A DNA stretch of 64,000 nt from Bacteroidales bacterium (GTDB lineage Bacteria > Bacteroidota > Bacteroidia > Bacteroidales > UBA932): positions 144,768-208,767 of the forward strand of contig JAFSSE010000041.1 of assembly GCA_017445755.1 (NCBI GenBank), given 5' to 3'. This document shows positions 13,257 to 34,156 of this stretch, in pieces. Made by a program: the position numbers and the translations under genes. The number at the start of each line of letters is the position of its first letter. Positions within the stretch are counted from its first letter, which is position 1. The notes beneath the pieces are model-generated. The model was given only the letters and a program-made list of their open reading frames with translations. It was not told the origin of the DNA and did not search any database.

Positions 13257-14519
13257 ATGAAAAAAACTTATCTCTTTACGTCCGAATCGGTGTCCGAGGG
13301 GCACCCGGACAAAGTGGCGGATCAGATTTCAGACGCCATCCTCGACGAATTTCTCCGTAAAGACCCGGAATCCCGCGTGGCCTGCGAAACCCTCTGTTCG
13401 ACAGGGATGGTCGTAGTTGTCGGCGAGGTGACCTCCGAGGCGTATGTTGACGTCCAGGGCATCGCCCGCCGCGTAATCCGTGAAATCGGCTATGACAAAG
13501 CCGATTACATGTTCGAGGCCGCCTCCTGCGGCATCCTTTCCGCCCTCCATGAACAGAGTCCCGACATCGGCCGCGGCGTAACCCGCGAGACCCCCCTCGA
13601 CCAGGGGGCGGGGGACCAGGGCATGATGTTCGGCTATGCCTGCCGTGACACGGAGGATTATATGCCCCTGCCGCTCTATCTGAGCCACCTGACGCTGCGC
13701 CTTCTGGCTGCGATCCGCCGTGACGAGAACTCCCCCATGCCCTATCTCCGCCCGGACGCAAAGGCCCAATTTACAGTTGAATACGACGCGGAAACGAACC
13801 GTCCCCTGAGGGTCCATACGATCGTCCTTTCGACCCAGCACGACGAGTTCGATACCGATGAGGCGATGCACTCCAGGATAGAGGCGGATGTCAGGAACAT
13901 CCTTCTCCCGAAGGTCCGCGCCCTCCTCCCTCCGGAGACCGCCGTCCTCCTCGGCGACGATGTGATTCTCCATGTCAACCCTACCGGAAAATTCGTGATC
14001 GGAGGCCCTGCCGGGGATACCGGGCTCACGGGCCGGAAAATTATCGTCGATACCTACGGTGGCAAGGGAGCCCATGGCGGCGGCGCATTTTCCGGGAAGG
14101 ACCCATCGAAAGTTGACCGCAGCGCGGCCTATGCCGCAAGGTGGGTCGCGAAGAACATGGTCGCCGCCGGCGTCGCCGACGAGATGCTGGTCCAGATTTC
14201 ATACGCAATCGGCATCTCCCGCCCGGTCAGCATCTATGTAAACTCATACGGCACCGCCCGTCCCGGAATTAGCGACAGCGAAATTGCGGAAAAGATGGGG
14301 GAACTCTTCGACCTCCGGCCCGCGGCCATTATCCGGAAATTCGGGCTGAAAAATCCGATTTACGAGCCGACCGCCGCCTATGGCCATGTCGGACGGAAAC
14401 CCTACACCGCCCCGGTGGAAGTTGAAAGAAACGGGAAGAAGGAAACAGTCCCGGTCCGCTTCTTCGCATGGGAGGACCTCGACGCGGTTGAAACGATCCG
14501 CACGGCGTTCAAACTATAG
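13257..14519 (+). CDS. metK: S-adenosylmethionine synthase
   Basis: 420 residues; converts ATP and methionine to SAM. Motifs: [25 protein letters not shown] (residues 6-30, ATP/Mg site), [16 protein letters not shown], the [10 protein letters not shown] hexapeptide region near 120, the [22 protein letters not shown] motif, and AYGHVGR near the C-terminus. I place the start at MKKTYLF (13257). An in-frame ATG at 13248 (MLKMKK) is also possible, whereas the frame extending to 12912 overlaps smpB and the promoter and is rejected. Single-gene unit with its own promoter. Confidence 0.96.
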
Positions 14520-14552
14520 TAAAAAAAATTTCGAAAAGTCAGAGATTTATAG

Positions 14553-14561
14553 TAACTTCGC
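14553..14561 (+). promoter_or_regulatory. Possible weak -7 box upstream of the Oar-like receptor
   Basis: TAACTTCGC differs from TAnnTTTG at one position and lies 38 nt upstream of the ATG at 14600. A TTTCG at 14529 sits about 20 bp upstream. This could be a weak or regulated promoter; read-through from metK is the alternative. Confidence 0.3.
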
Positions 14562-14599
14562 CTCGGAAAAGAATTATCATTCTTAACTAATCAATATTT

Positions 14600-17500
14600 A
14601 TGATCAAAACATTCAAACGTTTGGCACTCGCAATCATTACATTGTTTGCGGGTATTGTATCCTATGCCCAGGTGACTACGTCCGCCATTAACGGCCGTGT
14701 CGTCGACGCACAGGGCGCTCCTCTCGAAGGCGTGGCGGTCATCGCAAGCCACCTTCCTTCGGGTACCGTCTACGGCGCCATCACCAATTCCGATGGCCGT
14801 TATACCATCCAGGGTATGCGTAGCGGCGGCCCCTACAAGGTTGAAGTTTCCTGCCTCGGCTATCAGAGTGTCGAGTACACGGACATCACCCTGAAGCTCG
14901 CAGAAAGCTATGGCCTCAACGCCCAGCTGAGCGACGCCAGCGAATTCCTCTCCGAAGCGAAGGTAATCGCCGCCCCGACCTCGAAGTTCGCCCTCGAGGA
15001 GAAGACCGGTGCGACGACCAACATCTCCAACGCGGACATTCTCACCCTTCCTTCGACGAGCCGCAGCATTACGGATATCGCTAAACTTTCCCCTTACGGC
15101 GGAAATGGAATGAACATCGCAGGTGGTGACGGCCGTAGCGCCAACTTCACCGTTGACGGTGCAAACTTCAACAACAACTTCGGTCTTTCTTCGACCCTCC
15201 CTGGCGGCGGTATGCCGATCTCCATGGACGCTATCGAGGAAGTTCAGATCGTGGTTTCCCCGTTTGATGTCCGCCAGTCCAACTTCATCGGCGGCGGTGT
15301 CAACGCCATCACCAAGTCCGGTACCAACACCGTGAAGGGAACCGCCTATGTTTATCACCAGAACGGCAAGCTCCGCGGAACCTATGTCGATGGTGACGAG
15401 GTTACCCAGGACCGCGATGAGAAGGAAACTGTTTACGGTGCGACCGTCGGCTTCCCGATCCTGAAGAACAAACTCTTCTTCTTCGGAAGCTTCGAGTACA
15501 CCTCGAACCCTACCATGCCTAACTACTGGCGTCCCTCCACGAACGGTGTGGCCGACAAGGATGCATACATCTCCCGTACGACCGTTGCCGACATGCAGAG
15601 AGTCTCCGACTTCCTGAAGAACACCTATGGCTACGACACGGGCGGCTGGTCCAACTACGGAAAGACCGAGAGCAACCTCAAGCTCCTCGCCCGTATCGAC
15701 TGGAACATCAGCCAGAAGCACCACCTCGCCTTCCGTTACAACTTTACGACGAACTCCTACTGGGTTGGAACGAACGGCTCTTCCGCCGACTTCAACGACC
15801 CGACCGGAATCAAGGGTACCCGTATGAGCTACAACCGTCTCTCCCAGTACTCGATGGCCTTCGTCAATTCGATGTACTCGATGGAGAACAACGTCCACTC
15901 CTTCTCGTTCGACCTCAACAGCCGCCTCGGAGACAACCTCTCCAACCAGCTCCTCGTTACCTGGTCCAACATTGAGGATGTCCGTGGTTCCGACTCCGAC
16001 AAGTTCCCCTTCATCGACATCCTGAACGGTTACACCGGTTCCATCGCCGGCGGAGACCTCAAGCAGACCCTCGAGCCGTACATGGCTGCCGGTTATGAGC
16101 TCTTCACCTGGTACAACGGTGTCCACAACCGCGTTCTCAACGCCAAGGACGATATCACCTACTACGCAGGCGCCCACAAGCTTACCGCAGGTGCCAGCTT
16201 CGAGTATCAGTTCGCTGACAACGCTTACATGAGGGAAGGTACCGGATACTACCGCTTCCGCAGCGTTGACGACCTCCTGAACGGTGCAGCTCCTGAAACC
16301 GTCGCCCTTACCTATGGTTACGGCGGCAACGAGACTCCTTCCGCACGTATCCGCTTCACTCAGGTCGGTCTCTATGGCCAGGATGAGTGGGATGTCAACG
16401 ACAAACTGAAAGTGACTGCCGGTGTTCGTTTCGACACGATTCTCTACAACAACGCCGACCTGATGACGAATAACGCCATCTATGCGGTTGACTTCGGCGG
16501 AAAGAAGCTCGATACCGGCAAGTGGCCTGCGACCAATGTCCAGGTTTCCCCCCGTATCGGTTTTACCTATGACATCTTCGGTGACAAGTCGCTGAAGGTC
16601 CGCGGCGGTACCGGTCTCTTCGCCGGCCGTCTCCCGCTCGTTTACATGACGAACATGCCTTCGAACGCCGCCATGTTCCAGCATCTGTCCGTTATGACGA
16701 CCCAGTACAACACCGACGGAACCATTGCCGCCCGCAACCCGAACCTCGACGCCTTTGCGGCGAGCGCCAACGGTGGCAAGTTCCCGACCGCTACTGCTGA
16801 CATCCTCGCGAAGCTCAACAAGCTCGATCCGGCCAACAACCCGACCGACATCACTCCTAAGGACGGCGCCCTCCAGTCGACCGTCAACGGTGTGGACCCG
16901 AACTTCAAGATGCCTCAGGTATGGAAGACTTCCCTCGCCCTCGACATGCGTCTCCCTACCTCCTTCCCGTTCAGCATGACCGCCGAAGGAACCTTCAACA
17001 AGACCATCAACGGTACTCTTATCGCCAACTGGAACAATACGGACAACACTACCTGGCCGACCTGGTCCGGTCCTGACAACCGTCACGTATATGGCACCTA
17101 CAGCAACTACACCAAGTATCCTTGCTATGTGCTGACCAATACCAACAAGGGTTACGGTTGGATCTTCGTCCTCTCCGCCAGCGCAGAGCCGGTCAAGAAC
17201 CTCAAGATCAACGCATCCTATACCCATACCGAGCAGTATGAGGTTACCGGTATGCCTGGTAACAACGCCGAGTCCGTGTTCACCGGTCTCCCGACCGTCG
17301 ACGGCCCGAACTTCGCCGTTCTCCACGGTTCCCAGTATGTCCGTCCTGACCGCCTCATGGCCTCCGTTTCCTATCGTCTCCCGATCGGAACCACGCTCAG
17401 CGTCTTCTATCAGGGCTACACTCCTACCGGAAACAGCTACCTCTATTCCAACGATGTCAATGGCGACGGTGTAAAGCAGGATCTTATCTATATCCCTGCC

Positions 17501-17935
17501 ACCAAGGACGAAATCAAGTGGACCTCCGCTGCCGAAGCTGACAAGTTCTGGAACTTCCTCGAGCAGGATTCCTACCTCTCGACCCACAAGGGCCAGTATG
17601 CCGAGTCATACGCCGTCCACGCTCCGATGGTCCACTATGTTGACCTCAGGGCTACCCAGGACTTCAAGATCCGCATCGGAAAGAGCGTCAATACACTCCA
17701 GCTCAGCTGCGACCTCATGAATGTTGGCAACCTCCTGAACAACAGCTGGGGCGCTATCAACATCTTCGACGAGAGCGTCAACGAAGGCCAGATCCTTACC
17801 ATGGATCACCTTGAGAACGGCGAGCCCGTCTTCAAGACCAATTTCAAGGGTGACTCCCCCAAGACCTGGAACCACTCCCACTCCGTTGGCTCGCTGTGGT
17901 ATCTCCAGCTTGGTCTCAAGTATATGTTTAATTAA
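14600..17935 (+). CDS. Oar-type TonB-dependent outer-membrane receptor
   Basis: 1111 residues with a signal peptide (cleavage near SYAQ, residue 23). A carboxypeptidase-like regulatory domain (about 30-110, [19 protein letters not shown]) is followed by an Oar-family plug: [74 protein letters not shown]. A large barrel ends [10 protein letters not shown]. Oar-like receptors are a different clade from SusC and have no SusD partner; in some species they export or import macromolecules. The next gene, a surface-type lipoprotein with BACON and GLUG repeats, starts 14 nt after the stop, and a terminator then closes the unit. Substrate unknown; the next operon suggests nucleic acids or nucleotides. 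Confidence 0.9.
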   Translation: [1111 protein letters not shown]

Positions 17936-17949
17936 TCACATAACCTGGC

Positions 17950-20900
17950 ATGAAACTTAACAGAATCATCCTCGGTATCTTCGCCGGCGCAGCCCTTCTC
18001 TGGGGCTGTCAGCCGGACAATGCCGTAAATGCGGGTGACGGTGTCATCACTGTCGACCCTTCAATCGTTGAGGCCGCCAGCGCCGGCGAGACCCTTACCC
18101 TTTCGGTAACGTCTTCCGAGGCCTGGACAGCCAAGAGTGAATCCGACTGGGTCACTATTTCTCCTGCAAGCGGAGCGGCTTCCGCATCTACCGTAAAAGT
18201 ATCCGTAACCGTTGGGAAGAATCCCAATGAGAAGGCCCGTTCGGCTGAGATTACCTTTACCGCCGGTGCTTCCAAGAAGATTGTCTCCATTACCCAGAAA
18301 GCAGGCGGTATCGAATACGGTACGCTTGAAAATCCTTATACCGTCGCAAAGGTTGTCGAATTCTGCGGCGACCTCGCTGACAAGACCCCGACCTCCGCGT
18401 CGTACTATGTAAAGGGTATCGTAAGCCAGGTTGTCGAGGAGTTCGGCACCCAGTATGGTAACGGTACCTTCTGGATTTCCGATGACGGATCCAGGGACGG
18501 TGCCCAGTTCGAGGCATACCGTATCCTCTACCTCGAGAATGAGAAATGGGCCCAGAAGCACGTTGACGCCAAGGCGAAGAATGTCGCCGTCGGTGATGTC
18601 GTCGTGATCTACGGTCCTGTCCAGAACTACGGCGGTACCCCTGAGACCGCTTCCGGCGCCTACCTCTATTCCATCGAGGAGGGAACCGCTCCGATTCTTT
18701 CATGCTCCAACGCCGAGCAGACTGTCGTCGCTTCCACGACCGAGGTGAAATTCACCATCACCCCCGCCAATGTCTCTGCTTGGACCGCAAAGGCGAAGGA
18801 GACCTATGACTGGGTCACCGACTTTACGAAGAGCGGTGAAGGTGAGTCCGACCTTACGGTCACCATCCAGCCGAATACCGGCACCGAGGCACGTACCGCT
18901 GTCTTTGTAGTCTCCGCTGAAGGTGCTGCCGACATCGAGGTCTCCCTGACCCAGGCCGCCCCGGCTGTCGCTACTACGGTTGCAGAGCTCGTCGCCCTCA
19001 TTACCTCGACCGACAGCAAGAATCCTTCCGTCTATGAGGCCAACATCCCGGAGACCGCTCCGATTGTCGTTTCCTATGTAAATGGCGGCAACGTCCATAT
19101 GGAAGACGCTACCGGCGGTATCCTCTTATACAAGACCGACTCCGGCCTTGCCGCAGGCGACAAGATTTCAGGCAAGCTCTCAGGTACCGGTTATATCTTC
19201 AACGGCCTTCCCGAGATTACCGCATTGGGTGATGCATATGTAAAGACCGCAGGTACCGATATCCCCGAGACCGTCGTTACCATCTCCGCCCTACTTACCG
19301 ATTTCGATAAGTACATGAGCCGCCGCGTCAAACTCGAGAACGTCACTGTGACGAAGGTTGTCGATGACGCCAACCGTACCGGCGAAGTCGCCCAGGGCGA
19401 TGACAAGATCGCGGTCTATGCGGGTCTCAAGAACTCCGGGCTCACCCTTGCCGAAGGCGCCACTGGCGACCTCATCTGCTTCCCTCATCCTTACAAGGAC
19501 AGCAAGCAGGTCTACTTCTGGGACAACGCCGACTTCTCCGGCGGAGCTACCAAGCTCACGACCATCAAGTCTGCTGACGACTGGGCCAAGTTCGCCGCAG
19601 CCGCAGCCGAGTATACCGCTGAAGAGACCGTCACCCTTGCCGCTGACATTACCGTCACCGCACCGGTCGATACTCTCTTCTGCAACTTCGACGGTGGTAA
19701 CCACACCGTTACCTACGCATTCACCGCCGGAGAAAACGACGGACTCAAGGATGCTTCAGGTAGTGTAATCGAAGGCAATGAGAAGAAAGCGAACCTCGGT
19801 CTTTTCCGCGTCGTAAAGAACGTCAAGGTCAGTAATGTAAAGACCGCCGGTTCCATTGCGTTCGCCCCCGCAGCCGGTTCCGGTACGTACCATATAGGCG
19901 GTATCGCCGGTATGGCTCGTGCGGGAGTTACCCTTGAGAACTGCGTGAACGGCGTCGACATCCTCGCCACTACAAAGGTTACCCACCACGAAGGCGGTAT
20001 CATCGGTTACACCGAGCCCGCCGACGGCGCTCCGGTTAAAATCAGCGGCTGTACCAACAACGGTAAAGTCGAAATGGTTATTGACGGAGCTTCAAATGCT
20101 TCCCAGATCGGCGGTATTGTGGGCCATATCCAACTCAGCGCCGATGTTCTCTCCTGCGTCAACAACGGAATTGTCAACTATACAGGTACCGGTACCCCCC
20201 GTATCGGCGGTGTGGTCGGCTATGCCAATTTCCCGACGGACATCAAGTTTGTCGACTGTATTAATAACGGAGCTGTTTCCTCGCTTGCCGTCGGAACATC
20301 TACGTCCACTTCTTATAGCTATGCAGGAGGTATTTCCGGGTACTACGGAACCTCAACCGCAGATGGATATGCCGGAAGCGGCACCGTAGTTTATACCAAC
20401 TGCGTCAACAACGGCGATATTACCATTGACTGCGGAACCGCTTCCACCAAATTCCGTAACCGCGCCGGCGGTATTGCCTCCCTGATTTCCTGCGGAACCG
20501 GAACGGCGACTCTGACCGGCTGCGAAAACAATGGTAAGATAAGTATCCTGAACGCCAAGGGTAACGGTGGCCACGCAGGTGGTATTGCGGGTTATGTTGA
20601 GTCCACATCAACAGCTACATTCGACTCCTGCACCAACGACGCTACGATTATCAATGAAACAGGCAATTATGCCAACAGCAGCACCGCGGCGATTCTCGGA
20701 TCCCTTGCGGCCAATGCCAACGATGCAACTCACTCAGCTGTCAACTCCACGTTCAAGAATGTCAAGGTTACGGCTAACACTGTAATCAGCTCGACGACCG
20801 CCGGAGCAACTTCAAAGCTTGGCATCATCCTCGCTCCTCAGGTTGCAATCACAACCGATATGACCGGTGAAGTAGCCGCCTGCAAGATTATCCGCGGCGC

Positions 20901-22551
20901 AACTACGACCGAAATTACGGCTGAGAACTATCAGGATTACCTCGTTCAGGTCAAGGGCACAGCCAGCACCGCCGGCGTCACCTTCGCAGGTGCCTCCGAG
21001 CCGGCCGGCATCAAGACGGCAGCAGAGCTCCTCGCCTACCTTGCCAATCCGACTGAGGATCAGGTAATTGGAAAGGACATCGATATGACCGGTGTAACCG
21101 TCGTTCCCGCGACTGATTTCACCTTCACTCTCGATGGCCAGAACCATTCTATCAAGGGGCTCAGCGGTTCCCAGCCGCTCTTCCTCAAGAACAGCGGTAC
21201 CATTAAGAACATCGTTACCGAAGGCGCACTTACCCCTTCAGACAAAGAATTCGCCGTTATCGCCAAGGAGAACGCCGGAACCATCGAGAACGTAGTCAAC
21301 AAGGCCACTGTCACCTATTCAATCGGGGCGGCTGAGGACTATATCCTTATGGCAGGTATCGCAGCCAAGACCTCTGGTACGATCAAAGACTGCGTCAACG
21401 AAGGTGCTGTCACTATCACTTCCACGAGCTCTGTCAAGGGTGTCGGTCTCGGCGGTATCGTGGCTTATCAGGATGCCGCGGTTTCCGGCTGCGTCAATAA
21501 GGGTGACATTTCCCTTTCCGCAGTGAACGTCTCCGCGAAGTCTACGGTTTATGACGCCTCAGGTGTCCTTCCCAATATCGGAGGTGTTGCCGGTTTGGGC
21601 GGAAAGACCGGATTTGCTCTTACGGACTGCGAGAACTACGGAAAGGTCAGCTACTCCCTGTCCGGAGCGGATGTCGACCTTACAGCCAACCTCAACCGCA
21701 ACCAGATTGGTGGCGTTGTCGGTGGTCCTGTAGGCCCTGTAACCGGCTGCAAGAACTTCGGCGAGGTCAACGTTTCCCTCAAGCACAGTACTCCCGGTAC
21801 AGGGCTCGGCAAAGAGATGATTGTCAATGTCGGCGGTATCGGCGGCGGCGACTATCTGTTTACCAGCACTAGCGGAACCTTCGCCAATACGAGCTACACG
21901 AACTGCGTCAATGAGGGTAATGTTACTGTAGACAGCGACGCCTCCGCTTCCAACTCTGCCATCGGCGGTATCGTCGGATGGCCTGGCCAGGAGAAAGCCA
22001 TTACCGACATTAAGACCAGCGGATGCACCAATAAGGGTACTATTACCGGACGGGGTGCAATGAAGTGCCGTCTTGGCGGTATCCAGGGCGGAACCGGCGT
22101 TATCGAGAACTGTGTAAACGAGGGTAATATCGTCCTCGAGTCCGGCAATGTCGCTTCCGCAATCGGCTCTGTCGCCGGTTTCCATTCCCAGGGTCACGCC
22201 CTCACCGGCAGTAAGGCCGGCGGAAAGGTCGAGGCCAAGGTTGAACTCACAGGCGGATGCGGCGGCCTGATCGGCAACATCGGAAATGCCGCCCATACGA
22301 CCGGCGAGGGCTGCGAGGTTAATGCAGAAATCGTCATGGCAACGCCGGATGCGACGACAACCGGTCTTGTTGTAGGAAAGTTCAACGGTAATACCAAGGC
22401 AATCACGCTCGGAACGGCTGAGAGCCCCATCAAGGTCTCCGGATCCGTCAACGGAACTGCCGTAACTGCTGATAATTACGCCAGCTACCTTTATGGTTCT
22501 GCTAATTACACCGCCGGAACCCACGTTATCAACGCTGTCTTCGGCAATTAG
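17950..22551 (+). CDS. Large BACON/OB-module/GLUG-repeat surface lipoprotein
   Basis: 1533 residues. The lipobox ends LLWGCQPDN (Cys20). Domain order: BACON domain (about 30-115, ending VSITQKAG); OB-like module (about 120-235, YYVKGIVSQVVEEF then GDVVVIYGPVQNYGGTPE); second BACON-like domain (about 245-335, EVSLTQAAP); a DUF5689-like segment (about 340-510). About 1000 residues of GLUG-like repeats follow, recognisable by recurring GGI(A/V)G and NC(V/T)N(N/E)G motifs every 40-60 residues, as in a parallel beta-helix. Such proteins are surface-exposed binding or adhesion modules. Shared modules with the lipoprotein at 22940-24874 tie the two operons together. The product is unnamed; binding of an extracellular polymer is inference. 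Confidence 0.8.
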   Translation: MKLNRIILGIFAGAALLWGCQPDNAVNAGDGVITVDPSIVEAASAGETLTLSVTSSEAWTAKSESDWVTISPASGAASASTVKVSVTVGKNPNEKARSAEITFTAGASKKIVSITQKAGGIEYGTLENPYTVAKVVEFCGDLADKTPTSASYYVKGIVSQVVEEFGTQYGNGTFWISDDGSRDGAQFEAYRILYLENEKWAQKHVDAKAKNVAVGDVVVIYGPVQNYGGTPETASGAYLYSIEEGTAPILSCSNAEQTVVASTTEVKFTITPANVSAWTAKAKETYDWVTDFTKSGEGESDLTVTIQPNTGTEARTAVFVVSAEGAADIEVSLTQAAPAVATTVAELVALITSTDSKNPSVYEANIPETAPIVVSYVNGGNVHMEDATGGILLYKTDSGLAAGDKISGKLSGTGYIFNGLPEITALGDAYVKTAGTDIPETVVTISALLTDFDKYMSRRVKLENVTVTKVVDDANRTGEVAQGDDKIAVYAGLKNSGLTLAEGATGDLICFPHPYKDSKQVYFWDNADFSGGATKLTTIKSADDWAKFAAAAAEYTAEETVTLAADITVTAPVDTLFCNFDGGNHTVTYAFTAGENDGLKDASGSVIEGNEKKANLGLFRVVKNVKVSNVKTAGSIAFAPAAGSGTYHIGGIAGMARAGVTLENCVNGVDILATTKVTHHEGGIIGYTEPADGAPVKISGCTNNGKVEMVIDGASNASQIGGIVGHIQLSADVLSCVNNGIVNYTGTGTPRIGGVVGYANFPTDIKFVDCINNGAVSSLAVGTSTSTSYSYAGGISGYYGTSTADGYAGSGTVVYTNCVNNGDITIDCGTASTKFRNRAGGIASLISCGTGTATLTGCENNGKISILNAKGNGGHAGGIAGYVESTSTATFDSCTNDATIINETGNYANSSTAAILGSLAANANDATHSAVNSTFKNVKVTANTVISSTTAGATSKLGIILAPQVAITTDMTGEVAACKIIRGATTTEITAENYQDYLVQVKGTASTAGVTFAGASEPAGIKTAAELLAYLANPTEDQVIGKDIDMTGVTVVPATDFTFTLDGQNHSIKGLSGSQPLFLKNSGTIKNIVTEGALTPSDKEFAVIAKENAGTIENVVNKATVTYSIGAAEDYILMAGIAAKTSGTIKDCVNEGAVTITSTSSVKGVGLGGIVAYQDAAVSGCVNKGDISLSAVNVSAKSTVYDASGVLPNIGGVAGLGGKTGFALTDCENYGKVSYSLSGADVDLTANLNRNQIGGVVGGPVGPVTGCKNFGEVNVSLKHSTPGTGLGKEMIVNVGGIGGGDYLFTSTSGTFANTSYTNCVNEGNVTVDSDASASNSAIGGIVGWPGQEKAITDIKTSGCTNKGTITGRGAMKCRLGGIQGGTGVIENCVNEGNIVLESGNVASAIGSVAGFHSQGHALTGSKAGGKVEAKVELTGGCGGLIGNIGNAAHTTGEGCEVNAEIVMATPDATTTGLVVGKFNGNTKAITLGTAESPIKVSGSVNGTAVTADNYASYLYGSANYTAGTHVINAVFGN

Positions 22552-22572
22552 TACTTCACTGTAAAGTTTTTT

Positions 22573-22601
22573 AAGGGTGGCCGATTCGGTCACCCTTTTT
22601 T
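22573..22601 (+). terminator. Rho-independent terminator after the GLUG lipoprotein gene
   Basis: AAGGGTGGCCGA and TCGGTCACCCTT form an imperfect stem with one G-T wobble and a tight loop, followed by a T-run at 22596-22601. It lies 21 nt after the stop at 22551. It separates the Oar/GLUG unit from the downstream nuclease unit. Confidence 0.85.
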
Positions 22602-22651
22602 GACGTTTCGTGATCAAGGACGGATGCTTGTTGTCCAGTCCTCCTAAATGT

Positions 22652-22759
22652 CGTGGCGCGGAACAAATTATTACACAACAAATTACGCAAGATGACATAC
22701 TGATTTTCAGGTACGTCGTTTATGATAAAAAGTTGACCATAAGGCACTTTCGCGCCACG
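22652..22759 (+). repeat. Palindromic interspersed repeat, copy B (108 bp)
   Basis: The same 108-bp length and the same CGTGGCGCG/CGCGCCACG ends as copy A, with the shared core ATTTTCAGG at internal position 52 and GCACTT-type sequence before the right end. Positions 22692-22701 pair with 22710-22719 in the same register as copy A. Relative to copy A a G-C pair has become A-T (22699 with 22712). It occupies the 22602-22876 gap between a terminator and the next promoter; nothing else is recognisable in that stretch. Confidence 0.8.
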
Positions 22760-22876
22760 GGTTTTCATTCAAACTAAACAATACTTATATTGAACCTTGA
22801 ACTGAGGGACTGAGGGCAGAGGACAAACTTTTTTCAGCACTATACGGTAGGGGTTAAAAATTTCTAAAAATATTGG

Positions 22877-22885
22877 TATATTTGC
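22877..22885 (+). promoter_or_regulatory. -7 promoter box for the nuclease operon
   Basis: TATATTTGC is a perfect TAnnTTTG box in an AT-rich stretch, 54 nt before ATG 22940. An in-frame ATG at 22886 directly abuts the box and would lie upstream of, or at, the transcript start, so it is not the real start. Confidence 0.75.
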
Positions 22886-22939
22886 ATGATATGGGACAGA
22901 ATTGACGAAGAGAAGATAACAAAAATAATATCAAATAAA

Positions 22940-24874
22940 ATGAAAACAAGAAGTTTGCTGCTGATGGCCCTGACGCTGGTGCTGAGCGTCTCCTGCGACC
23001 TCCTGTCGCAAAACGAAGAAGACTTCGGGGAAGCCGATATCCAGGTGAATCCGACGACCCTCTCCTTCGACCAGGGAGTTTCTTCAAGGACAGTTACAAT
23101 CCTTGCGACCCGCCCCTGGCAGGCGGAATTCAGCGAAAGCTGGATTGCGGTTGATCCCGCCAAGGGCCCTGCATCCCTGTCAGGACAGGAAATTACCATT
23201 ACAGTCCTCGAGAACAAATCCGTCGAGCGCACGGGGAAGGTCGTCTTCAACGCCGGTATTGTCAGCGCATCGCTGACCCTTACCCAGCCGGGCGACGGAA
23301 GCCAGGGAAACGGCTCCGCGGAGAGTCCCTATACGGTAAATGCCGCCATGGAGATTATCTCAGGGATGAATTCGTCCGAAAGCAAGACCGTCTATGTCAA
23401 GGGTAAGGTTTCGAAACTTGGAGAGTTCGGCGGATCCTACGGGAACTATACCTACTATATTTCCGACACTGACTCGACAAGGACCAACCTCGAGGTGTAC
23501 CGCGGGTATGGACTCAATAAGGCGAAATTCACCTCGGCTGACGACCTGAAACTCGGAGACGAAGTCGTAGTCTACGGAGATGTCGTAAACTTCAAGGGGA
23601 ACACTCCCGAATTCACTTCCGGAAGCCAGCTCGTTTATCTCAACGGGCAGACGGCGCCCATCGTCGAAGAGACTCCTGGAACGCCCGAAGGCGCGGGAAC
23701 TGCCGAGAGCCCCTTCAATGTAGCCGCAGCAATCGCCAAGTGCCAGGAAATCGGAACGACCGCATCGACGGACAAGTACTATGTCAAGGGCATCGTGACC
23801 GGCTCAAACGGCATCGACGCGTCCTGGGGCAATGCAACCTTCTATATCAAGGATGCGAACGCCACCGCGACCTTCTATATCTATCGCTGCTTCTCCTTCG
23901 ACGGGGCTCAGTTTACGACAAACGATGTCTTCAAGGAAGGTGACGAGGTCGTCGTCTGCGGTCCTCTCGTAAACTATCAGGGCAACACTCCCGAGATGAC
24001 TACCGGCGGATTTCTCGTCACGGTCAACGGTGCCGGAGCTCCCGAGCCCGTGGTCGGTACGCCGGAGGGCAGCGGAACGGCAGAGAGCCCCTTCAATGTC
24101 TCCGCGGCAATCGCAAAGGCAAAGGAGACCGGCGAAACCGAGACTACGGATTCCTACTATGTCAAGGGAACGATTAAGGGCAGCATTGACCTCAGCGCGA
24201 CGAACGGCAATGTTTCCTTCAATATTACCGACGGGGGAGAAACGACGGCTGTGTTCAGGATCTTCCGCGCGGTCGGCTTCGGCGGCGCCGCCATGGTCGG
24301 TGATGAAATCATCAAGGAAGGCGACGAGGTCGTAATCTGCGGAAAGATTGTCAATTATCAGGGTAAGACCCCCGAAACGGCCCAGGGTGCATCTTTCGTC
24401 TCGATTAACGGGAAGACCGAATTCGAGAGGAAGGAAACCGAGCCGGTTACGGGAGATGCCGCTGAGTTCGCGAGTAATATTTCCTTCTCGGCCGGGACCA
24501 ATGCCTATACCGAGAAAGCGACAGTGAACGGAATTGCCGACGTAGTTGTATATAAGCTCGGAAAGAGCTCGGCTGCCGGCGAGGCGACCGTAACGATTCC
24601 TGCAGGAACGAAGTCCATCTCCTTCTATGGAGTCTCCTGGAAGGCCAAGGAAGCGACCCTGGATATCAAGATTGGCGGATCTTCGGTCTATACCCAGGCG
24701 CTTGCCGCCAACGAAGGCGCCTCCAACAACTCCCCGTATACTCTGACGGTAACCTCTTCCGACAAGTACACGTACGCTTTTGACACCGCGCTCACCGAAG
24801 CGGTTACGGCGACAGTGACGACCACTGGGACCAATACCCGTGTCATCCTCTTCGGCATTCAGGCCGCCAAGTAG
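22940..24874 (+). CDS. BACON lipoprotein with three repeated OB-like modules
   Basis: 644 residues from ATG 22940, which gives a clean lipoprotein signal (SLLLMALTLVLSVSC, Cys18). Domain order: one BACON domain (about 25-105), then three copies of an approximately 125-residue module. Each copy opens GxAESPxxVxAAxxI, continues YYVKGxVxG, and ends EGDEVVVxGxxVNYxGxTPE with a short linker. A C-terminal jelly-roll-like domain (about 525-644) ends RVILFGIQAAK. The modules resemble OB-fold domains that accompany nucleases in Bacteroidales (DUF6359/YhcR-like, assigned from memory). The next gene, a secreted nuclease, starts 1 nt after the stop, so a surface nucleic-acid-binding role is a reasonable inference. 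Confidence 0.8.
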   Translation: MKTRSLLLMALTLVLSVSCDLLSQNEEDFGEADIQVNPTTLSFDQGVSSRTVTILATRPWQAEFSESWIAVDPAKGPASLSGQEITITVLENKSVERTGKVVFNAGIVSASLTLTQPGDGSQGNGSAESPYTVNAAMEIISGMNSSESKTVYVKGKVSKLGEFGGSYGNYTYYISDTDSTRTNLEVYRGYGLNKAKFTSADDLKLGDEVVVYGDVVNFKGNTPEFTSGSQLVYLNGQTAPIVEETPGTPEGAGTAESPFNVAAAIAKCQEIGTTASTDKYYVKGIVTGSNGIDASWGNATFYIKDANATATFYIYRCFSFDGAQFTTNDVFKEGDEVVVCGPLVNYQGNTPEMTTGGFLVTVNGAGAPEPVVGTPEGSGTAESPFNVSAAIAKAKETGETETTDSYYVKGTIKGSIDLSATNGNVSFNITDGGETTAVFRIFRAVGFGGAAMVGDEIIKEGDEVVICGKIVNYQGKTPETAQGASFVSINGKTEFERKETEPVTGDAAEFASNISFSAGTNAYTEKATVNGIADVVVYKLGKSSAAGEATVTIPAGTKSISFYGVSWKAKEATLDIKIGGSSVYTQALAANEGASNNSPYTLTVTSSDKYTYAFDTALTEAVTATVTTTGTNTRVILFGIQAAK

Positions 24875-24875
24875 T

Positions 24876-26042
24876 ATGAAACGCCATCTCAGCTTGCTGT
24901 TTTCCCTCTTTATCGGGGCCGTTCTCTCCGGCGGGTGCTTTGCACCTTCCGGGGATGCGGAGACGGTAGAGTTGTCCTCTCCGGGAGGATACTCACTTTC
25001 CCAAAAGGGTGGAAGCATGTTCCTTTCCGTCTCGTCGAACGCCAGCTGGACCCTTGAAATCGTCTTCGAGGGCGAGGATGAGGGCTGGGCGGAGATTACC
25101 CCTTCCTCCGGCACCGGAGACAAGTCGAGCATAGTCCTCTCCTGGAAGACCAACAATTCTGACAGCGAGCGCTCGTTCCGTGTTGTCGCTTCGACAAAGT
25201 CGGTTACCCCCACGGAAGGAGTCCTGTTTACCCAGGTCGGCCCTTCCCGGCCGGTAAACCATGACGGCACATCGACGAAGGCCGGATGGCTGGAGCTCCC
25301 TGAAACGAAGGATGGAGACGGGTTGGATTTCTTTGTCCATGACATGCCCCTCGGCGGCCAGACGGTCCGGAATTACTCCTTCTACTGGGACTATGACGCC
25401 CTTGTGGCCCACTGGGTAGCGTATCCGCTGAACAAGGGGCTTTACGGGAGCGGTACCCGTTCGGATGCATGGGCCCTCGACCCGCTGATTCCCGAGGCGG
25501 GACAGCCGGTCCTTTTCAAGGGCTTCCAGGAGAGCGGTACATATGCCCGCGGCCACCAGCTTCCTTCGGCCCACCGGCTGAACTACCAGGCCAATATCCA
25601 GACCTTCTACGGGACGAACATGACCCCGCAGCGTCATACCTTCAACGAAGGGATCTGGGCAACCCTGGAGGCGAGGGTCAAGGACTGGAGCTCCTCCTGC
25701 GATACTCTCTACTGCGTCACCGGCTGCGACCTCAAAGGCAGTACGCAGTACGCCCATGACAACTACGGCTCGCCGGTTGCGATTCCGACGGCCTACTGGA
25801 AGGCCTGTCTCCGTTACAGCAGCGCCGGAACCGTCGGCTTCAACGGCTACTCCGCCTGCGCCTTCTACCTCAAGCACGACTACAGCGGAAGTTCGCTGAC
25901 TTCCTCTATGGCCATTTCCATCGACGAACTTGAAGAAATCCTCGGAATAGACCTCTTTGTGAACCTCCCCTCGAAAGTCGGCGCCGAAACGGCTGCGAAG
26001 ATAGAAAGCCAGAATCCGTCTTCGGTTTCCCTCTGGTGGTGA
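24876..26042 (+). CDS. BACON-domain lipoprotein with NUC1-type DNA/RNA non-specific endonuclease domain
   Basis: 388 residues from ATG 24876, with lipobox LSGGC at Cys21. A BACON domain (about 30-122, ending LFTQVG) precedes a beta-beta-alpha-Me nuclease domain (about 135-380). The catalytic segment reads YARGHQLPSAHR with His227, and the metal/structural segment reads YGTNMTPQRHTFN (Asn248, Asn257) followed by Glu265. These match endonuclease G/NucA-type enzymes that cut DNA and RNA without sequence preference. Odd: the usual Asp of DRGH is Ala here, and the SADR-like motif reads SAHR. Surface location follows from the lipid anchor. It is followed after 24 nt by an EEP phosphodiesterase gene. 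Confidence 0.9.
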   Translation: MKRHLSLLFSLFIGAVLSGGCFAPSGDAETVELSSPGGYSLSQKGGSMFLSVSSNASWTLEIVFEGEDEGWAEITPSSGTGDKSSIVLSWKTNNSDSERSFRVVASTKSVTPTEGVLFTQVGPSRPVNHDGTSTKAGWLELPETKDGDGLDFFVHDMPLGGQTVRNYSFYWDYDALVAHWVAYPLNKGLYGSGTRSDAWALDPLIPEAGQPVLFKGFQESGTYARGHQLPSAHRLNYQANIQTFYGTNMTPQRHTFNEGIWATLEARVKDWSSSCDTLYCVTGCDLKGSTQYAHDNYGSPVAIPTAYWKACLRYSSAGTVGFNGYSACAFYLKHDYSGSSLTSSMAISIDELEEILGIDLFVNLPSKVGAETAAKIESQNPSSVSLWW

Positions 26043-26066
26043 TTCTTTGAAAACAAACCCTGACAA

Positions 26067-27143
26067 ATGAAACGAATACTAACCGCACTCCTCGCCCTTC
26101 TGTTTCTTTCCGCCCCCTTCTCGGATGCGGAGAAGCGGACTTACGTGATCGGGTTCTACAATCTTGAGAACCTGTTCGATACCTACCACGACGACGGGAA
26201 GAACGACTACGAGTACCTCCCGGACGGAGCAAACCAGTGGACAGAGGCGAAATATCGGAAGAAACTCCGGAACATGGCCCATGTCATCGCCGAGATGAAA
26301 AAGGACAACGGTCGCTGGCATACCGTTCTCGGTGTCAGCGAGATTGAGAACCGCCATGTCCTCGAAGACCTCGTAATGGAATCGGAAATCGCCGAAGCGA
26401 ACTACCAGATTGTCCATTATGACGGTCCGGACCGCCGAGGTGTCGATGTCGCCCTCTTATACAAGCCCGACCAGATGACCCTTGTCGAGAGCGAGTCCAT
26501 CCCCTTCGACTTCAATTCCAGCAAAATCCGCTTCGATATGACGAAGGAGGATATGGATTATTTCCGCACCCGCGACATCCTGATGGTCCATGGCATCATC
26601 GACGGCGAGCACTTCGCCTTCTATGTCTGCCACCTTCCCTCCCGCCTCGGCGGCAAGGGGCAGGACCTCCGCGCCCGCGGCGGGGAAATCATCTATGAGC
26701 ACTCGATGAAGATGATGAAAAAGTACCCCGGAATCAAGTGCGTGGTCATGGGCGACATGAACGACAACCCGACGGACGAATCCATGGCCGTCTATCTCCG
26801 CGGCAGGGAAAAACTCTCCCAGGTCGGCCCGGAGGACTATTTCTCGCCTTTTCTGTCCATGCTGAAGGCGGGCTACGGCTCCCTTGCGTACAGGGGCGAA
26901 TGGAACATCTACGACTGCATCCTTGTGAATTACGCCCTCGCCCACCCGGACAAGGGGACCTTCCAGATCATGCCGATTATAAAGAAGAAAAAGCATAAAT
27001 ACTACGGCCGCATATTCTCGAAACCCTTCATGACCAACCAGTCCGGCCAGTATAAGGACACCCCTTTCAGGACCTTCTCCAACGGGGCCTTCGTCGGGGG
27101 CTATTCTGACCATTATCCTACGTATATTGTTATCAGTAAATAA
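26067..27143 (+). CDS. Secreted endonuclease/exonuclease/phosphatase (EEP) family protein
   Basis: 358 residues; a signal peptide covers about residues 1-21 (LLALLFLSAPFSDA). The EEP fold is shown by FYNLENLFDTYHDDG (residues 29-43), LGVSEIENRHVLEDL (catalytic Glu), HYDGPDRRGVDVALLY, CHLPSR near 190, VVMGDMNDNPTDES near 222 and SDHYPTYIVI at the C-terminus (catalytic Asp-His). Members hydrolyse phosphodiester bonds in nucleic acids or lipids. Placement directly after a NUC1-type nuclease and directly before a TonB receptor (the stop TAA abuts the next ATG) favours an extracellular or periplasmic nucleic-acid substrate, but this is inference. Confidence 0.9.
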   Translation: MKRILTALLALLFLSAPFSDAEKRTYVIGFYNLENLFDTYHDDGKNDYEYLPDGANQWTEAKYRKKLRNMAHVIAEMKKDNGRWHTVLGVSEIENRHVLEDLVMESEIAEANYQIVHYDGPDRRGVDVALLYKPDQMTLVESESIPFDFNSSKIRFDMTKEDMDYFRTRDILMVHGIIDGEHFAFYVCHLPSRLGGKGQDLRARGGEIIYEHSMKMMKKYPGIKCVVMGDMNDNPTDESMAVYLRGREKLSQVGPEDYFSPFLSMLKAGYGSLAYRGEWNIYDCILVNYALAHPDKGTFQIMPIIKKKKHKYYGRIFSKPFMTNQSGQYKDTPFRTFSNGAFVGGYSDHYPTYIVISK

Positions 27144-30116
27144 ATGAAAGCGAGATTATTCCTTCTTTCTCTTCTCGTAGCTTTCGCCGCTGTTCCCCGG
27201 ATTTCGGCCCAGGAACTTACCGGCGGGGTCAAGGGAACGGTCATAAACCGCACCGACCGCACGGCGGTGGAGAACGCCCGTCTGGTACTTTACCAGGGGG
27301 CGACCGAGGTTGCAGAGGTACGTTCTTCCTCAGACGGCAGCTTCTATATCCCCCGGCTTGACAACGGGATGTATACTCTCTCGATTTATTCCGAAGAGTT
27401 TCTCGAAACCCAGGTCCAGGTAACCGTCAACGACGGATATGTCAAGAACATGTTCAACATCGGCCTCACCCCGGCACGGAAAGTTTCCGAGGTCGTTGAT
27501 GAAAGCTTGGCGGAGTTCGACATGGACGACAGCGGGTATAACGACAACCCGACCGTCCTTTTCGGCTCCAATGACGTGTTCTCCAACATCGTCGGCTACA
27601 ACTTCTCCTCCGTACGTTTCCGCCAGAGGGGTTATCTCGGTGAATCCCAGGATGTTCTCCTTGCCGGAGTAAAGATGAACGACGCTATTACGGGCTACTC
27701 TCCCTTCAGCTTGTGGAGCGGACTTAACGAGGCGATGCGTTCCAAGGATGCGACCCTCGGAAACGACGCCCTGGATTACGGGCTGGGCGGTTACAACGGC
27801 ATCACCAATATTTACGGGAACGCCTCTTCTGTCCGTAAGGGACTCAGGGGAAGCGTCTTGACCAACAGCGCCCTCTACCGGCTCCGCCTCATGGCTTCCT
27901 ATGCGACGGGTGTCATGGACAACGGCTGGTCCTTCGCGGCCAACGTCTCCGCCCGACTCGGCGGAAACGACTGGATAGACGGTGTTTACTACCGCTCCTT
28001 CGCATACTACCTCGCCGCGGACAAGCAGCTTGACGAGAAGAACCGTATCGGCTTTGTCTTCTTTGCCACCCCCGGGCAGCGCGGCGCCCAGAACGCCTCG
28101 ACCCAGGAGGTATATGACCTCATCGGAGACAACATGTATAACTCCAACTGGGGTTATCAGAACGGGGTTGTCCGTAACGCCCGCGTCCGCAAGACCAATG
28201 AGCCGGTCGCGATTCTCCGCTACGACTATACCCCTACGGACAATTTCCAGGCGGGAGCGACCCTCCTCTACCGCTTCGGCAAGAACGGCTACACCGCCCT
28301 CGACTGGTATGATTCCGCAGATCCCCGTCCGGATTACTACCGCAATCTCCCGAGCTACTTCAACATGGACAACGACGACCTCAACCGGAGCAATTACACC
28401 AAGGCCGGCTGGGCCCGCGAGGCATGGACCCACCCGTCCCTCTACCCGGACATCGTCCATGTCAACTGGGACCGCCTCTATACGGTCAACTCGATGAACT
28501 ATGACACCTATGGCTCGACGAGCGGAAACCGCTCCAAATATGTCCAGGAGGAGCGTCATGTTGACCAGAGGGACCTTAATTTCGCGGCCAATTTCAAGTG
28601 GCGCCCCAACGCCGAAACAATCATAACTGGCGGTGCCAACGCGAAAATCAACCGTACCGAGAACTATAAGATCATCGCCGACCTCCTCGGAGGCGACTAC
28701 TATGTCAATATCGACAACTTTGCCGACCGCGACTACGGTTCCACTCCTGCGAAGGTCCAGAATGACCTCGACTACTATATGGCCAACGGCTCGGCTGAGG
28801 TCCTCCATGTAGGCGACAAGTACGGTTACGACTATCTTGCACAGATCCGCAAAGGTGAGGTATGGGCGAACGGAGTTTTCTCCCGCGGAAACCTTTCCAC
28901 CACCGTCGGCGCCCGCCTCGGAGTCGAGAGCTTCTGGAGGGAAGGCCTGATGAGGAAGGGACTTTTCCCGGGTGTGGATGACAACGGGAACGCCTTTGTG
29001 GTGGACGGGGTCGCCCTGGATGTCGCAAAGGACCATAACGGAGAGGTCATTACCTCCTACGGGAAGTCCAAGGTCGCTACCTTTGTGACCGGCGCCTTCA
29101 AACTCGGACTCAACTACGTCCTCGGCGGAAACCAGAGGGTTTACGCCAATGCCGGCTGGTTCCGCGACGCCCCGAAGTTCAACCAGGTTTTCCTCTCCCC
29201 GAGGACCCGGAACTCCATGATGGACGAGCTTAAGCCGGTAAGGACTGCCGCCTACGATATCAACTGGCAGTTCACGGGAGGCGGTTACAACGCCCGCGTA
29301 ACGGCTTACTACACGTCGATAAAGGACCAGTCCAAGGTCATGAGCGCCTATGACGACCTCCAGAACGCCTTCTCGAACTTCGCCCTCACGGGAATCGACG
29401 AGCGCCATGTCGGCGTGGAGGTCGGCGTCAAGGTTCCGACCCCCGTCCCGTCCCTCTTCGTCCAGGGAGCCCTCAGCGCAGGTCGCTATGTCTATACGTC
29501 CAATCCGTATATGACTCAGACGGTTGACAACAGCGCCGACCTCGTTATCGACAACGCCCTCGTTCCCTACTGGAAGGAGACCCCGGTTTACGTGAAGGAC
29601 GCTTCCGGGAACTACCAGACGAACGCCTCCGGTGAGTTTACGAAGAAGGTGTCCGGCTTCCAGGAGCACTATGTCCCTTCGACCCCTCAGCTGGCTGCGA
29701 GCATCGGCCTTTCCTACAACTGGAACTACTGGTTCATCGACGCCGACATCCAGTATTTTGCCGAGTCATACCTCGACATGAACCCGCTCTACCGCACCGA
29801 CTATGCCGTTGCGGGACCGGACGGAATAGTCTCGCCGGTTGAGGTCGAGTACATGACCTCCCAGGAGAAGTTCGATCCCGCCTGCCTCCTCAACCTCTCG
29901 GTCGGCAAGTCCTGGTACATCCAGCGGAAGTACCAGCTCGGCTTCTCGCTCAACGCACGGAACCTCCTCAACAACACCTCGGTGAAGACCGGTGGTTATG
30001 AGCAGACCCGTATCGTTGACAATACCGTCAATAAGGAACGTTACTATCGGTTTGACCCGAAGTATTTCTATATGAGCGGTTTCAATTATATGTTGAACAT
30101 CTATTTCAGATTCTAG
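27144..30116 (+). CDS. TonB-dependent outer-membrane receptor of the nuclease operon
   Basis: 990 residues; signal peptide to about residue 22 (VPRISAQE). A carboxypeptidase-like regulatory domain (about 25-105, GVKGTVINRTDRTAVENARLVLY) is followed by a plug-like region (about 130-260, VGYNFSSVRFRQRGYLGESQDVLLAGVKMND) and a barrel ending LNIYFRF. It lacks the SusC signature and no SusD gene is nearby. The start ATG abuts the stop of the EEP gene, and a DUF5689 lipoprotein gene starts 4 nt after its stop. Import of nuclease products (oligonucleotides, nucleosides or phosphate) is the likely role by context only. Confidence 0.9.
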   Translation: MKARLFLLSLLVAFAAVPRISAQELTGGVKGTVINRTDRTAVENARLVLYQGATEVAEVRSSSDGSFYIPRLDNGMYTLSIYSEEFLETQVQVTVNDGYVKNMFNIGLTPARKVSEVVDESLAEFDMDDSGYNDNPTVLFGSNDVFSNIVGYNFSSVRFRQRGYLGESQDVLLAGVKMNDAITGYSPFSLWSGLNEAMRSKDATLGNDALDYGLGGYNGITNIYGNASSVRKGLRGSVLTNSALYRLRLMASYATGVMDNGWSFAANVSARLGGNDWIDGVYYRSFAYYLAADKQLDEKNRIGFVFFATPGQRGAQNASTQEVYDLIGDNMYNSNWGYQNGVVRNARVRKTNEPVAILRYDYTPTDNFQAGATLLYRFGKNGYTALDWYDSADPRPDYYRNLPSYFNMDNDDLNRSNYTKAGWAREAWTHPSLYPDIVHVNWDRLYTVNSMNYDTYGSTSGNRSKYVQEERHVDQRDLNFAANFKWRPNAETIITGGANAKINRTENYKIIADLLGGDYYVNIDNFADRDYGSTPAKVQNDLDYYMANGSAEVLHVGDKYGYDYLAQIRKGEVWANGVFSRGNLSTTVGARLGVESFWREGLMRKGLFPGVDDNGNAFVVDGVALDVAKDHNGEVITSYGKSKVATFVTGAFKLGLNYVLGGNQRVYANAGWFRDAPKFNQVFLSPRTRNSMMDELKPVRTAAYDINWQFTGGGYNARVTAYYTSIKDQSKVMSAYDDLQNAFSNFALTGIDERHVGVEVGVKVPTPVPSLFVQGALSAGRYVYTSNPYMTQTVDNSADLVIDNALVPYWKETPVYVKDASGNYQTNASGEFTKKVSGFQEHYVPSTPQLAASIGLSYNWNYWFIDADIQYFAESYLDMNPLYRTDYAVAGPDGIVSPVEVEYMTSQEKFDPACLLNLSVGKSWYIQRKYQLGFSLNARNLLNNTSVKTGGYEQTRIVDNTVNKERYYRFDPKYFYMSGFNYMLNIYFRF

Positions 30117-30120
30117 GGCC

Positions 30121-31200
30121 ATGAGAAAGTTCTTTTTTGCATCCATCGCCGCCCTTGTGGCGCTTGTCTCCTGCGAAGAGTGGGAGCCGGTAATGACCCT
30201 TTCATACGATGAGCCCGAGGCCTTTGTTCCGGTTGACATGGATGACCAGGTCAACATGTCCATCGCGGAGCTGAAGGCCAAATACCCCGGCCATGGAACC
30301 CCTCTCGAGATTACCGAGAACTGGATTATCAAGGGCCAGGTCATTTCCTCGGACAAGTCCGGCAACGTCTACCGCGAGCTCTATATCCAGGATGCGACCG
30401 GCGGAATCGACGTGAAGGTCGGGAAGTCCTCTATGTACAACGACTATAAGGAAGGCCAGTGGATCTACGTCAAGTGCCGCGACCTCACCCTCGGCGAGTA
30501 TGGCTACAAGAGCGGGAATTACGGCGGGGACGGCATGCTCCAGCTGGGCATGGCCGATCCGACCGGCTCCTATGAAACGGCCTACATCGACGTGCAGCTC
30601 CTGATTGACCGCCATATTTTCCGCGGCAAGGTCGACACCCCCGTCACCCCGACGGTCCTCACCGAGAACCAGGTTTCCGACAGCCGCTATGACGGCACCC
30701 TCGTGACGCTCAAGGGGCTGAAATTCGCCGATGAGCAGTTCGCCCTCGTCTATGTCTCTTCCGCCCTTGACACCAAGGCCGCCAACAACCGCGTTTTCCT
30801 CTCCGACAAGAACTGGGGCATCACCACCTGGGCCTTCTCGAAGAACAAGTTCCTCGAGTATATCAACTCCGGAATCTGGGATACCGCCACCGTCGGCAGC
30901 GGAAATGAGAATTACGGGGCCATCACCGGCAAGGCGACGGCCATCGAAGGCAAGGACGCCGTCCATACCTATAAGGAACTGATGATTGCAAACGCCGCCG
31001 CGAACTCCGTCAGCCAGTACTTCAAGATGGGTTCCACGGAGATTCAAATCCGCACGAGCGGCTACTCACGCTTCTCCGACACCGAAATCGACCCTGCAAT
31101 CCTCTCCGGAGCGAAGACCATCGACGTAACCGGTATCCTGACCCGCTACCAGGGCGCCGCACAGTTCACCCTCCTGGACCTCGACGGGGTGGTGTATTGA
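30121..31200 (+). CDS. DUF5689 domain lipoprotein
   Basis: 359 residues with lipobox ALVSCEEWE (Cys18). The DUF5689 hallmark ISIAELKAKY-type helix (MSIAELKAKYPGHGTPLEI near residues 40-58) is followed by WIIKGQVISSDKSGNVYREL and YIQDATGGIDVKVG, an OB-fold-like strand pattern. A second OB-like segment (about 180-355) ends RYQGAAQFTLLDLDGVVY. DUF5689 proteins accompany TonB receptors and EEP nucleases in Bacteroidales and are thought to be surface accessory binders; the precise role is unknown. It is the last gene of the nuclease operon; the 31201-31365 gap carries a repeat copy and the hairpin at 31336. Confidence 0.88.
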   Translation: MRKFFFASIAALVALVSCEEWEPVMTLSYDEPEAFVPVDMDDQVNMSIAELKAKYPGHGTPLEITENWIIKGQVISSDKSGNVYRELYIQDATGGIDVKVGKSSMYNDYKEGQWIYVKCRDLTLGEYGYKSGNYGGDGMLQLGMADPTGSYETAYIDVQLLIDRHIFRGKVDTPVTPTVLTENQVSDSRYDGTLVTLKGLKFADEQFALVYVSSALDTKAANNRVFLSDKNWGITTWAFSKNKFLEYINSGIWDTATVGSGNENYGAITGKATAIEGKDAVHTYKELMIANAAANSVSQYFKMGSTEIQIRTSGYSRFSDTEIDPAILSGAKTIDVTGILTRYQGAAQFTLLDLDGVVY

Positions 31201-31222
31201 TAATCATTGAATAAAAGAAGAG

Positions 31223-31327
31223 GGTGGCCAATAAGGTCTCTGGTGCTACTGAACGTACACGTTTTTGACCTATTTTGTGCACGTCAAGTACCATTAGAAC
31301 GTTTTCATGGGCACCGCTGCTGGCGGA
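31223..31327 (+). repeat. Palindromic interspersed repeat, diverged copy C (~105 bp)
   Basis: It aligns with copies A and B along its length. The left end GGTGGCC resembles CGTGGCGC, ATTTTGTGCACGTC sits where A and B have ATTTTCAGGYACGTY, and GGGCACC sits where they have GGCACTT. TTGAC (31265-31269) pairs with GTCAA (31283-31287) around the core. In addition GGTGC (31242) and GCACC (31311) are inverted. The right end is not clearly conserved, so boundaries are approximate. Confidence 0.5.
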
Positions 31328-31335
31328 AGGGCAAA

Positions 31336-31363
31336 AATAAGGTGACCAGGCGGTCACCTTATT
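31336..31363 (-). terminator. Terminator ending the minus-strand galE-to-GLUG run (bidirectional-looking)
   Basis: AATAAGGTGACC (31336-31347) and GGTCACCTTATT (31352-31363) form a perfect 12-bp stem with a 4-nt loop. On the minus strand the stem is followed by TTTTTGC after the stop at 31366. It may also stop plus-strand transcription from the nuclease operon. Confidence 0.85.
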
Positions 31364-31365
31364 CT

Positions 31366-34134: not shown

Positions 34135-34156
34135 GTTATTATTATGGTTAATCATA

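Follow-up and report, generated by a model that had tools for sequence, protein, structure and literature searches.

The DNA analysed here, a stretch of 64,000 nucleotides from a Bacteroidales genome (the window), contains seven consecutive open reading frames between positions 14600 and 31200, all on the + strand (Table 1). The source genome is a 2.18 Mb draft that is 83% complete. The original prediction described a locus for the use of extracellular nucleic acid with two TonB receptors and no SusD. All seven genes exist and Pfam agrees with their assignment except for GLUG repeats in gene 2 and a plug and barrel in gene 6; no SusD was found by Pfam among the seven proteins. Gene 1 matched OMP_b-brl_4 (1.5e-44), CarboxypepD_reg (6.7e-22) and a TonB barrel family (1.4e-9). 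Gene 2 matched BACON alone, with no GLUG family at E 0.01, and its GLUG-like repeats were seen only by eye.

Table 1. Genes and sequence signals of the locus, in window coordinates.
Feature	Position	Strand	Basis
Gene 1, Oar-type TonB-dependent receptor; first unit, lineage-specific	14600..17935	+	Pfam
Gene 2, BACON + OB-like lipoprotein, GLUG-like repeats (by eye)	17950..22551	+	Pfam BACON
Terminator-like hairpin with T run, between units	22573..22597	+	fold z -5.89, 0/200 shuffles as good
TAtaTTTG box ahead of gene 3	22877..22884	+	box search
Gene 3, lipoprotein, BACON + three OB-like modules; opens conserved cassette	22940..24874	+	Pfam, internal repeats, lipobox
Gene 4, lipid-anchored NUC1 (Endonuclease_NS) nuclease	24876..26042	+	Pfam 2.8e-32
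Gene 5, secreted EEP phosphodiesterase	26067..27143	+	Pfam Exo_endo_phos_3 PF19580 3.2e-88
Gene 6, outer-membrane receptor, homologue of RA0C_RS04915	27144..30116	+	identity, tree clade
Gene 7, DUF5689 surface lipoprotein, homologue of RA0C_RS04920	30121..31200	+	Pfam DUF5689 1.2e-45
Terminator-like hairpin past gene 7	31336..31363	+	scan + fold, z -5.13

Gene 3 matched BACON as well as OB-fold families (tRNA_anti_2, 2.3e-9; tRNA_anti-codon, 2.2e-7). It shares a BACON + OB unit with gene 2 (32% identity over 265 columns), and its other OB modules align to the same region of gene 2. A pattern search detected a lipobox in genes 3, 4 and 7; the lipobox of gene 2 and the signal-peptide-like N-terminal starts of genes 5 and 6 were recognised by eye. 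The starts of gene 3 (22,940) and gene 4 (24,876) were set from the lipoprotein signal. The predicted structure of gene 7 has a mean pLDDT of 89.9 and its OB assignment comes from a sub-threshold Pfam match (E 0.0021). Elsewhere in the same genome two tandem BACON/DUF5689 lipoproteins lie beside SusD and SusC genes (L161:3942-13541, contig C12 of G000), and DUF5689 modules also serve in this classic SusCD-type locus. Because of this neighbourhood BACON or DUF5689 is no proof of a nucleic-acid substrate.

The NUC1 nuclease keeps R225, G226, H227 and N248, which are invariant in 12 of 12 sequences; R-G-H forms the core and the Asn binds the metal. The residue before R-G-H is Asp in nine sequences, Ser in one and Ala in two, the window included. 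The closest solved relatives of gene 4 are NucA-type nucleases. For the EEP protein a set of Asn, Glu, Asp and His is likewise kept in 12/12. Many phosphodiesters are substrates of the EEP class as a whole, and the PDB matches of the EEP profile were only weak ones, to Nocturnin. From the conserved residues we infer that both gene 4 and gene 5 encode active enzymes. The genome contains relatives of both: a second Endonuclease_NS gene adjoins a BACON lipoprotein, with no receptor pair in the stretch examined (L160:3743-7012, contig C4 of G000), and a second EEP-family gene (G000:C20:106021-106971, - strand) is 36% identical to gene 5.

The spacing of the genes is uneven, with 14 nt between genes 1 and 2, 388 nt between genes 2 and 3, and then 1, 24, 0 and 4 nt up to gene 7. 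The hairpin at 22573..22597 is absent from the list of a simple terminator scan, which showed no enrichment: it counted 11 terminators, and shuffled sequence gave 17.5 on average. Two boxes of the Bacteroidales -7 type occur in 14,401-31,400, the TAtaTTTG box before gene 3 and one within gene 6; a full TTTG...TAnnTTTG Bacteroidales-type promoter was not found within the locus. A single seven-gene operon was rejected on the hairpin, the gaps and the patchy occurrence of the Oar gene in relatives. The seven genes are thus probably two units by their sequence signals, and genes 3-7 (22,940-31,200) are best read as one transcription unit. Of the seven-gene locus first proposed, genes 3-7 are the conserved unit. 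Past the locus a convergent gene (31366-34155, - strand) encodes a DUF4886 protein in which GLUG-like repeats were seen by eye.

The predicted second TonB receptor, gene 6, was upheld in part. Its own Pfam match is CarboxypepD_reg, with no plug or barrel family, but Plug was matched in 11 of the 22 members of its family and the family profile aligns to the Oar profile over residues 1-379 with a probability of 94%. Judged by these matches gene 6 is probably a divergent TonB-receptor-type protein. The best solved barrel was OprC, a weak match of 15.2 bits, and together with the missing SusD and the lack of an own barrel-family match this led us to reject an ordinary SusC. As in a SusCD-type PUL, a TonB-type receptor, surface lipoproteins and secreted enzymes are found in one locus; unlike in such a PUL, the seven genes include neither SusD nor a glycan enzyme and the receptor matches no standard barrel family.

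Homologues of genes 5, 6 and 7 are neighbours in the duck bacterium Riemerella anatipestifer. In PMC8459023, unmarked deletion of RA0C_RS04915 or RA0C_RS04920 abolished natural transformation, leaving no detectable transformants, and the transformation genes are termed a unique machinery; at one point homologues of all four new genes are said to occur widely in the phylum Bacteroidetes, and elsewhere RS04915 homologues are placed in Flavobacteriaceae only. In the open-licence literature we found no other paper linking these genes to DNA uptake. The locus of RA0C_RS04915 and RA0C_RS04920 (L154) was identified by two published primers for comEC of R. anatipestifer ATCC 11845 (PMC8383284) that match it exactly inside the ComEC frame, and by its gene order: recA, dinB, sdhB, sdhA, sdhC, comEC, a small ORF, a carboxyltransferase, EEP, receptor and DUF5689, which fits the tags 04870, 04895, 04915 and 04920 if tag numbers rise by five from one gene to the next. 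The primer matches establish R. anatipestifer at the level of the species, and the EEP gene beside the pair would carry the tag RS04910.

Gene 6 is homologous to the Riemerella receptor over its full length, with 27% identity (298 bits, E 1e-90), and gene 5 is 29% identical to the EEP protein beside the pair (181 bits). Gene 7 matches the Riemerella DUF5689 protein with 60 bits by BLAST, and hhalign aligned the two at 99.7% over 257 columns. At 599 bits the Riemerella protein belongs fully to NCBIfam NF052645 (M949_1556), whereas gene 7, at 63.5 bits against a cut-off of 475, is a relative and not a member. Both loci have a receptor with a CarboxypepD_reg N-terminus followed by a DUF5689 lipoprotein, an adjoining EEP gene, and receptors of one clade. 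They differ in that the window EEP gene is co-directional, upstream and in the same unit while that of Riemerella is divergent, that the window adds the NUC1 nuclease and the BACON/OB lipoprotein, that identity is only 27-30%, that gene 7 lacks the choice-of-anchor-J end present in the Riemerella protein, and that the window module is not near comEC or recA in the stretch examined.

A Riemerella M949_1556 mutant, a DUF5689-family mutant, is reported to have altered antigenicity and pathogenicity, a phenotype that could reflect a general surface role of the family. It is conceivable, though in our view improbable, that the receptor imports something else, such as a phosphodiester compound, a metal complex or a glycan, or that it helps to maintain the outer membrane, and that transformation in Riemerella was lost indirectly. 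Such a role would suit the altered antigenicity, the DUF5689/BACON lipoproteins beside SusC and SusD, and an EEP class of wide phosphodiester range whose profile finds Nocturnin weakly. It accords poorly with NUC1 being of a DNA/RNA nuclease family, with the OB-fold matches in gene 3, and with the finding in PMC8459023 that either deletion left no detectable transformants and not just fewer. We favour, with moderate confidence and from sequence comparison, the reading that genes 3-7 serve Bacteroidota as a module for capturing DNA at the outer membrane and importing it.

To place the receptor we built a tree of 60 receptors by a quick method with no bootstrap, after excluding seven matches (three below 40 bits, one fragment and three copies of included genes). 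The window and Riemerella receptors fall in one 49-row clade with an SH-aLRT of 100, apart from 11 paralogues. A paralogous receptor family (L052-L062, L110, L111) is about 21-25% identical to gene 6 and forms its own clade; in genomes G019 and G007 a DUF5689 gene is close by. The 15 rows marked as having NUC1 in the cassette are one clade of the tree, and in gut Bacteroidales (Cryptobacteroides-like genomes, Alistipes and some Bacteroides) one clade has added the tandem NUC1. The nearest row outside the NUC1 clade is the receptor of L144 (L144:3873-11773, G184), where NUC1 lies about 1.8 kb from the DUF5689 gene and the EEP gene is still divergent, possibly an intermediate arrangement.

Conservation of gene order had been proposed as a check, and the order of genes 4-7 does recur in relatives, which makes the arrangement more than chance. 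In a sample of 99 genomes of the class we found 28 with a receptor match at 1e-10, 17 of them (the own genome included) of 1e-50 quality or better, and compared the neighbourhoods of the other 16 together with the window. DUF5689 lies directly downstream of the receptor in 15/17 loci; one miss is at a contig end and the other has a DUF5689 gene on another contig. In 13/17 loci an EEP gene lies no more than about 2 kb from the pair; in 4/17 it is not near. From 149 genomes of the order, 73 match the receptor at 1e-20, and we examined 20 of these, the best-scoring apart from the window and one examined before: DUF5689 is directly downstream in 19/20 and about 1.8 kb away in one, and EEP is near in 15/20, with a contig end accounting for at least one of the five other loci. 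Receptor matches are present in 116/120 genomes of Riemerella's family (searched with a relative's receptor) and in 47/61 genomes of the window's genus, or 22/25 of those of good quality. Receptor and DUF5689, mostly with EEP nearby, thus recur across the class Bacteroidia.

Closer relatives were taken from the best 80 of 589 confirmed stretches, a set that leans to the window's kin. They are mostly rumen or gut Bacteroidales and include Candidatus Cryptobacteroides, Coprenecus, Alistipes, Tidjanibacter, Bacteroides pyogenes and B. reticulotermitis. Among these best 80 of 589, EEP immediately precedes the receptor in 78 (the misses, L213 and L218, are contig ends), DUF5689 immediately follows it in 78 (L204 and L210, again contig ends) and NUC1 is in tandem in 73, so that the check came out positive. 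Seven lack the tandem NUC1: L183, L213 and L218 are cut, in L237, L238 and L240 it is further off, and L236 has none. In eight loci that were scanned, the lipoprotein upstream of NUC1 carries BACON in six and DUF5689 in five. An Oar gene is found upstream in 21 of 36 close loci and in 0 of 18 more distant ones, counting loci with at least 9 kb upstream, where long genes could hide a few. The two halves, expected to occur together, do so in part of the close loci and in none of the more distant ones counted, and the Oar half (genes 1-2) is lineage-specific and patchy.

Homologues of ComEC, DprA and NamZ were searched in the genus, where ComEC is present in 60/61 genomes, DprA in 58/61 and NamZ/DUF1343 in 61/61 at 1e-5 (55/61 at 1e-50); the own genome has both ComEC and DprA. 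Their presence says little because both are common, with ComEC in 94/99 class genomes and both genes in 10/14 control genomes. The own ComEC is a 356-aa frame (L159:4681-5748) covering positions 2-237 of 270 of the Competence domain, compared with 602 aa in Riemerella, and the domain match runs over a stop. A broken ComEC particular to this genome was rejected, since the match stops at much the same point in nearly all genomes of the genus. ComEC is compact across the genus, with frames mostly of 351-430 aa ending near position 240 of 270.

In the DNA capture and import module that we propose, the surface DUF5689 and BACON/OB lipoproteins would bind DNA and the gene 6 receptor would carry the bound DNA into the periplasm, probably powered by TonB. 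EEP, joined in the NUC1 clade by the lipid-anchored NUC1, would trim or cut the DNA, as their conserved residues suggest, and NUC1 may prepare it for entry or digest it as food. In Riemerella, tonBA and tonBB mutants are reported to show lower transformation with an iron defect in tonBB only, which agrees with a TonB drive without proving it. Support for the import module comes from the homology of genes 5, 6 and 7 to the adjacent Riemerella EEP-receptor-DUF5689 set, the requirement for receptor and DUF5689 gene in transformation (PMC8459023), the common receptor clade, the gene order conserved in Bacteroidia, the NUC1 and OB-fold domains in one unit, and ComEC, DprA and NamZ in the genus. Against it stand the 27-30% identity, a gene 7 far below the NF052645 cut-off and devoid of the choice-of-anchor-J end, the compact ComEC of the genus with ComEC and DprA too common to discriminate, and the loci where EEP is not near the pair (4/17 in the class, 5/20 in the order). 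A nonspecific surface nuclease would moreover shorten incoming DNA, and what the Riemerella deletions demonstrate is that transformation requires the genes; transport of DNA by the receptor itself does not follow from them.

By their domains the parts do add up, as predicted, to proteins that catch nucleic acid at the surface, cut it and import it; the nutritional purpose given to them fits these parts as well, but the sole experiment found on homologues (PMC8459023) points to natural transformation. In a purely nutritional locus NUC1 and EEP would break down DNA or RNA on the cell surface, and the fragments would enter through the receptor to supply phosphate, nitrogen, nucleosides or carbon; the DNA-import pair would then be ancestral and would have been diverted to feeding once NUC1 was added. 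Two nuclease-type enzymes with capture lipoproteins in one unit, the joining of NUC1 in one clade of gut lineages, the other NUC1 of the genome, which adjoins a BACON lipoprotein, and the compact ComEC would all agree with feeding. We nevertheless hold a purely nutritional role to be rather unlikely: the only homologues tested were required for transformation (PMC8459023), no nucleotide-catabolism gene recurs in the 43 compared neighbourhoods, and no regulator gene lies inside the interval. Besides the cassette genes, the families in these 43 neighbourhoods occur in at most 7 loci each, and the minor ones, named by eye, include glycosyltransferase-like and dihydroorotase-like proteins.

The import module may serve transformation, feeding or both in the gut lineage, as a DNA-import machine rather than a feeding device only. 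EndA of Streptococcus pneumoniae is a DNA-entry nuclease, and like it gene 4 is a surface-anchored enzyme of the Endonuclease_NS family in what may be a DNA-entry setting; NUC1 could prepare DNA for entry as EndA does. Gene 4 differs in being lipid-anchored with a BACON-like part, and its link to uptake is put forward here by inference. We speculate, tentatively and with more doubt than confidence, that gut Bacteroidales such as Cryptobacteroides, Alistipes and some Bacteroides can, in suitable conditions, be transformed naturally by means of a TonB-driven outer-membrane DNA importer that requires no type IV pilus and whose dedicated surface nuclease readies the incoming DNA. The passage of DNA across the outer membrane of Bacteroidota is poorly known. 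If the gut cassette works as its Riemerella counterpart does, the uptake of free DNA in gut and rumen would become open to test, and EEP and NUC1 would be new candidates for parts of the machinery; should the cassette serve feeding instead, it would show how a DNA importer can be put to such a use.
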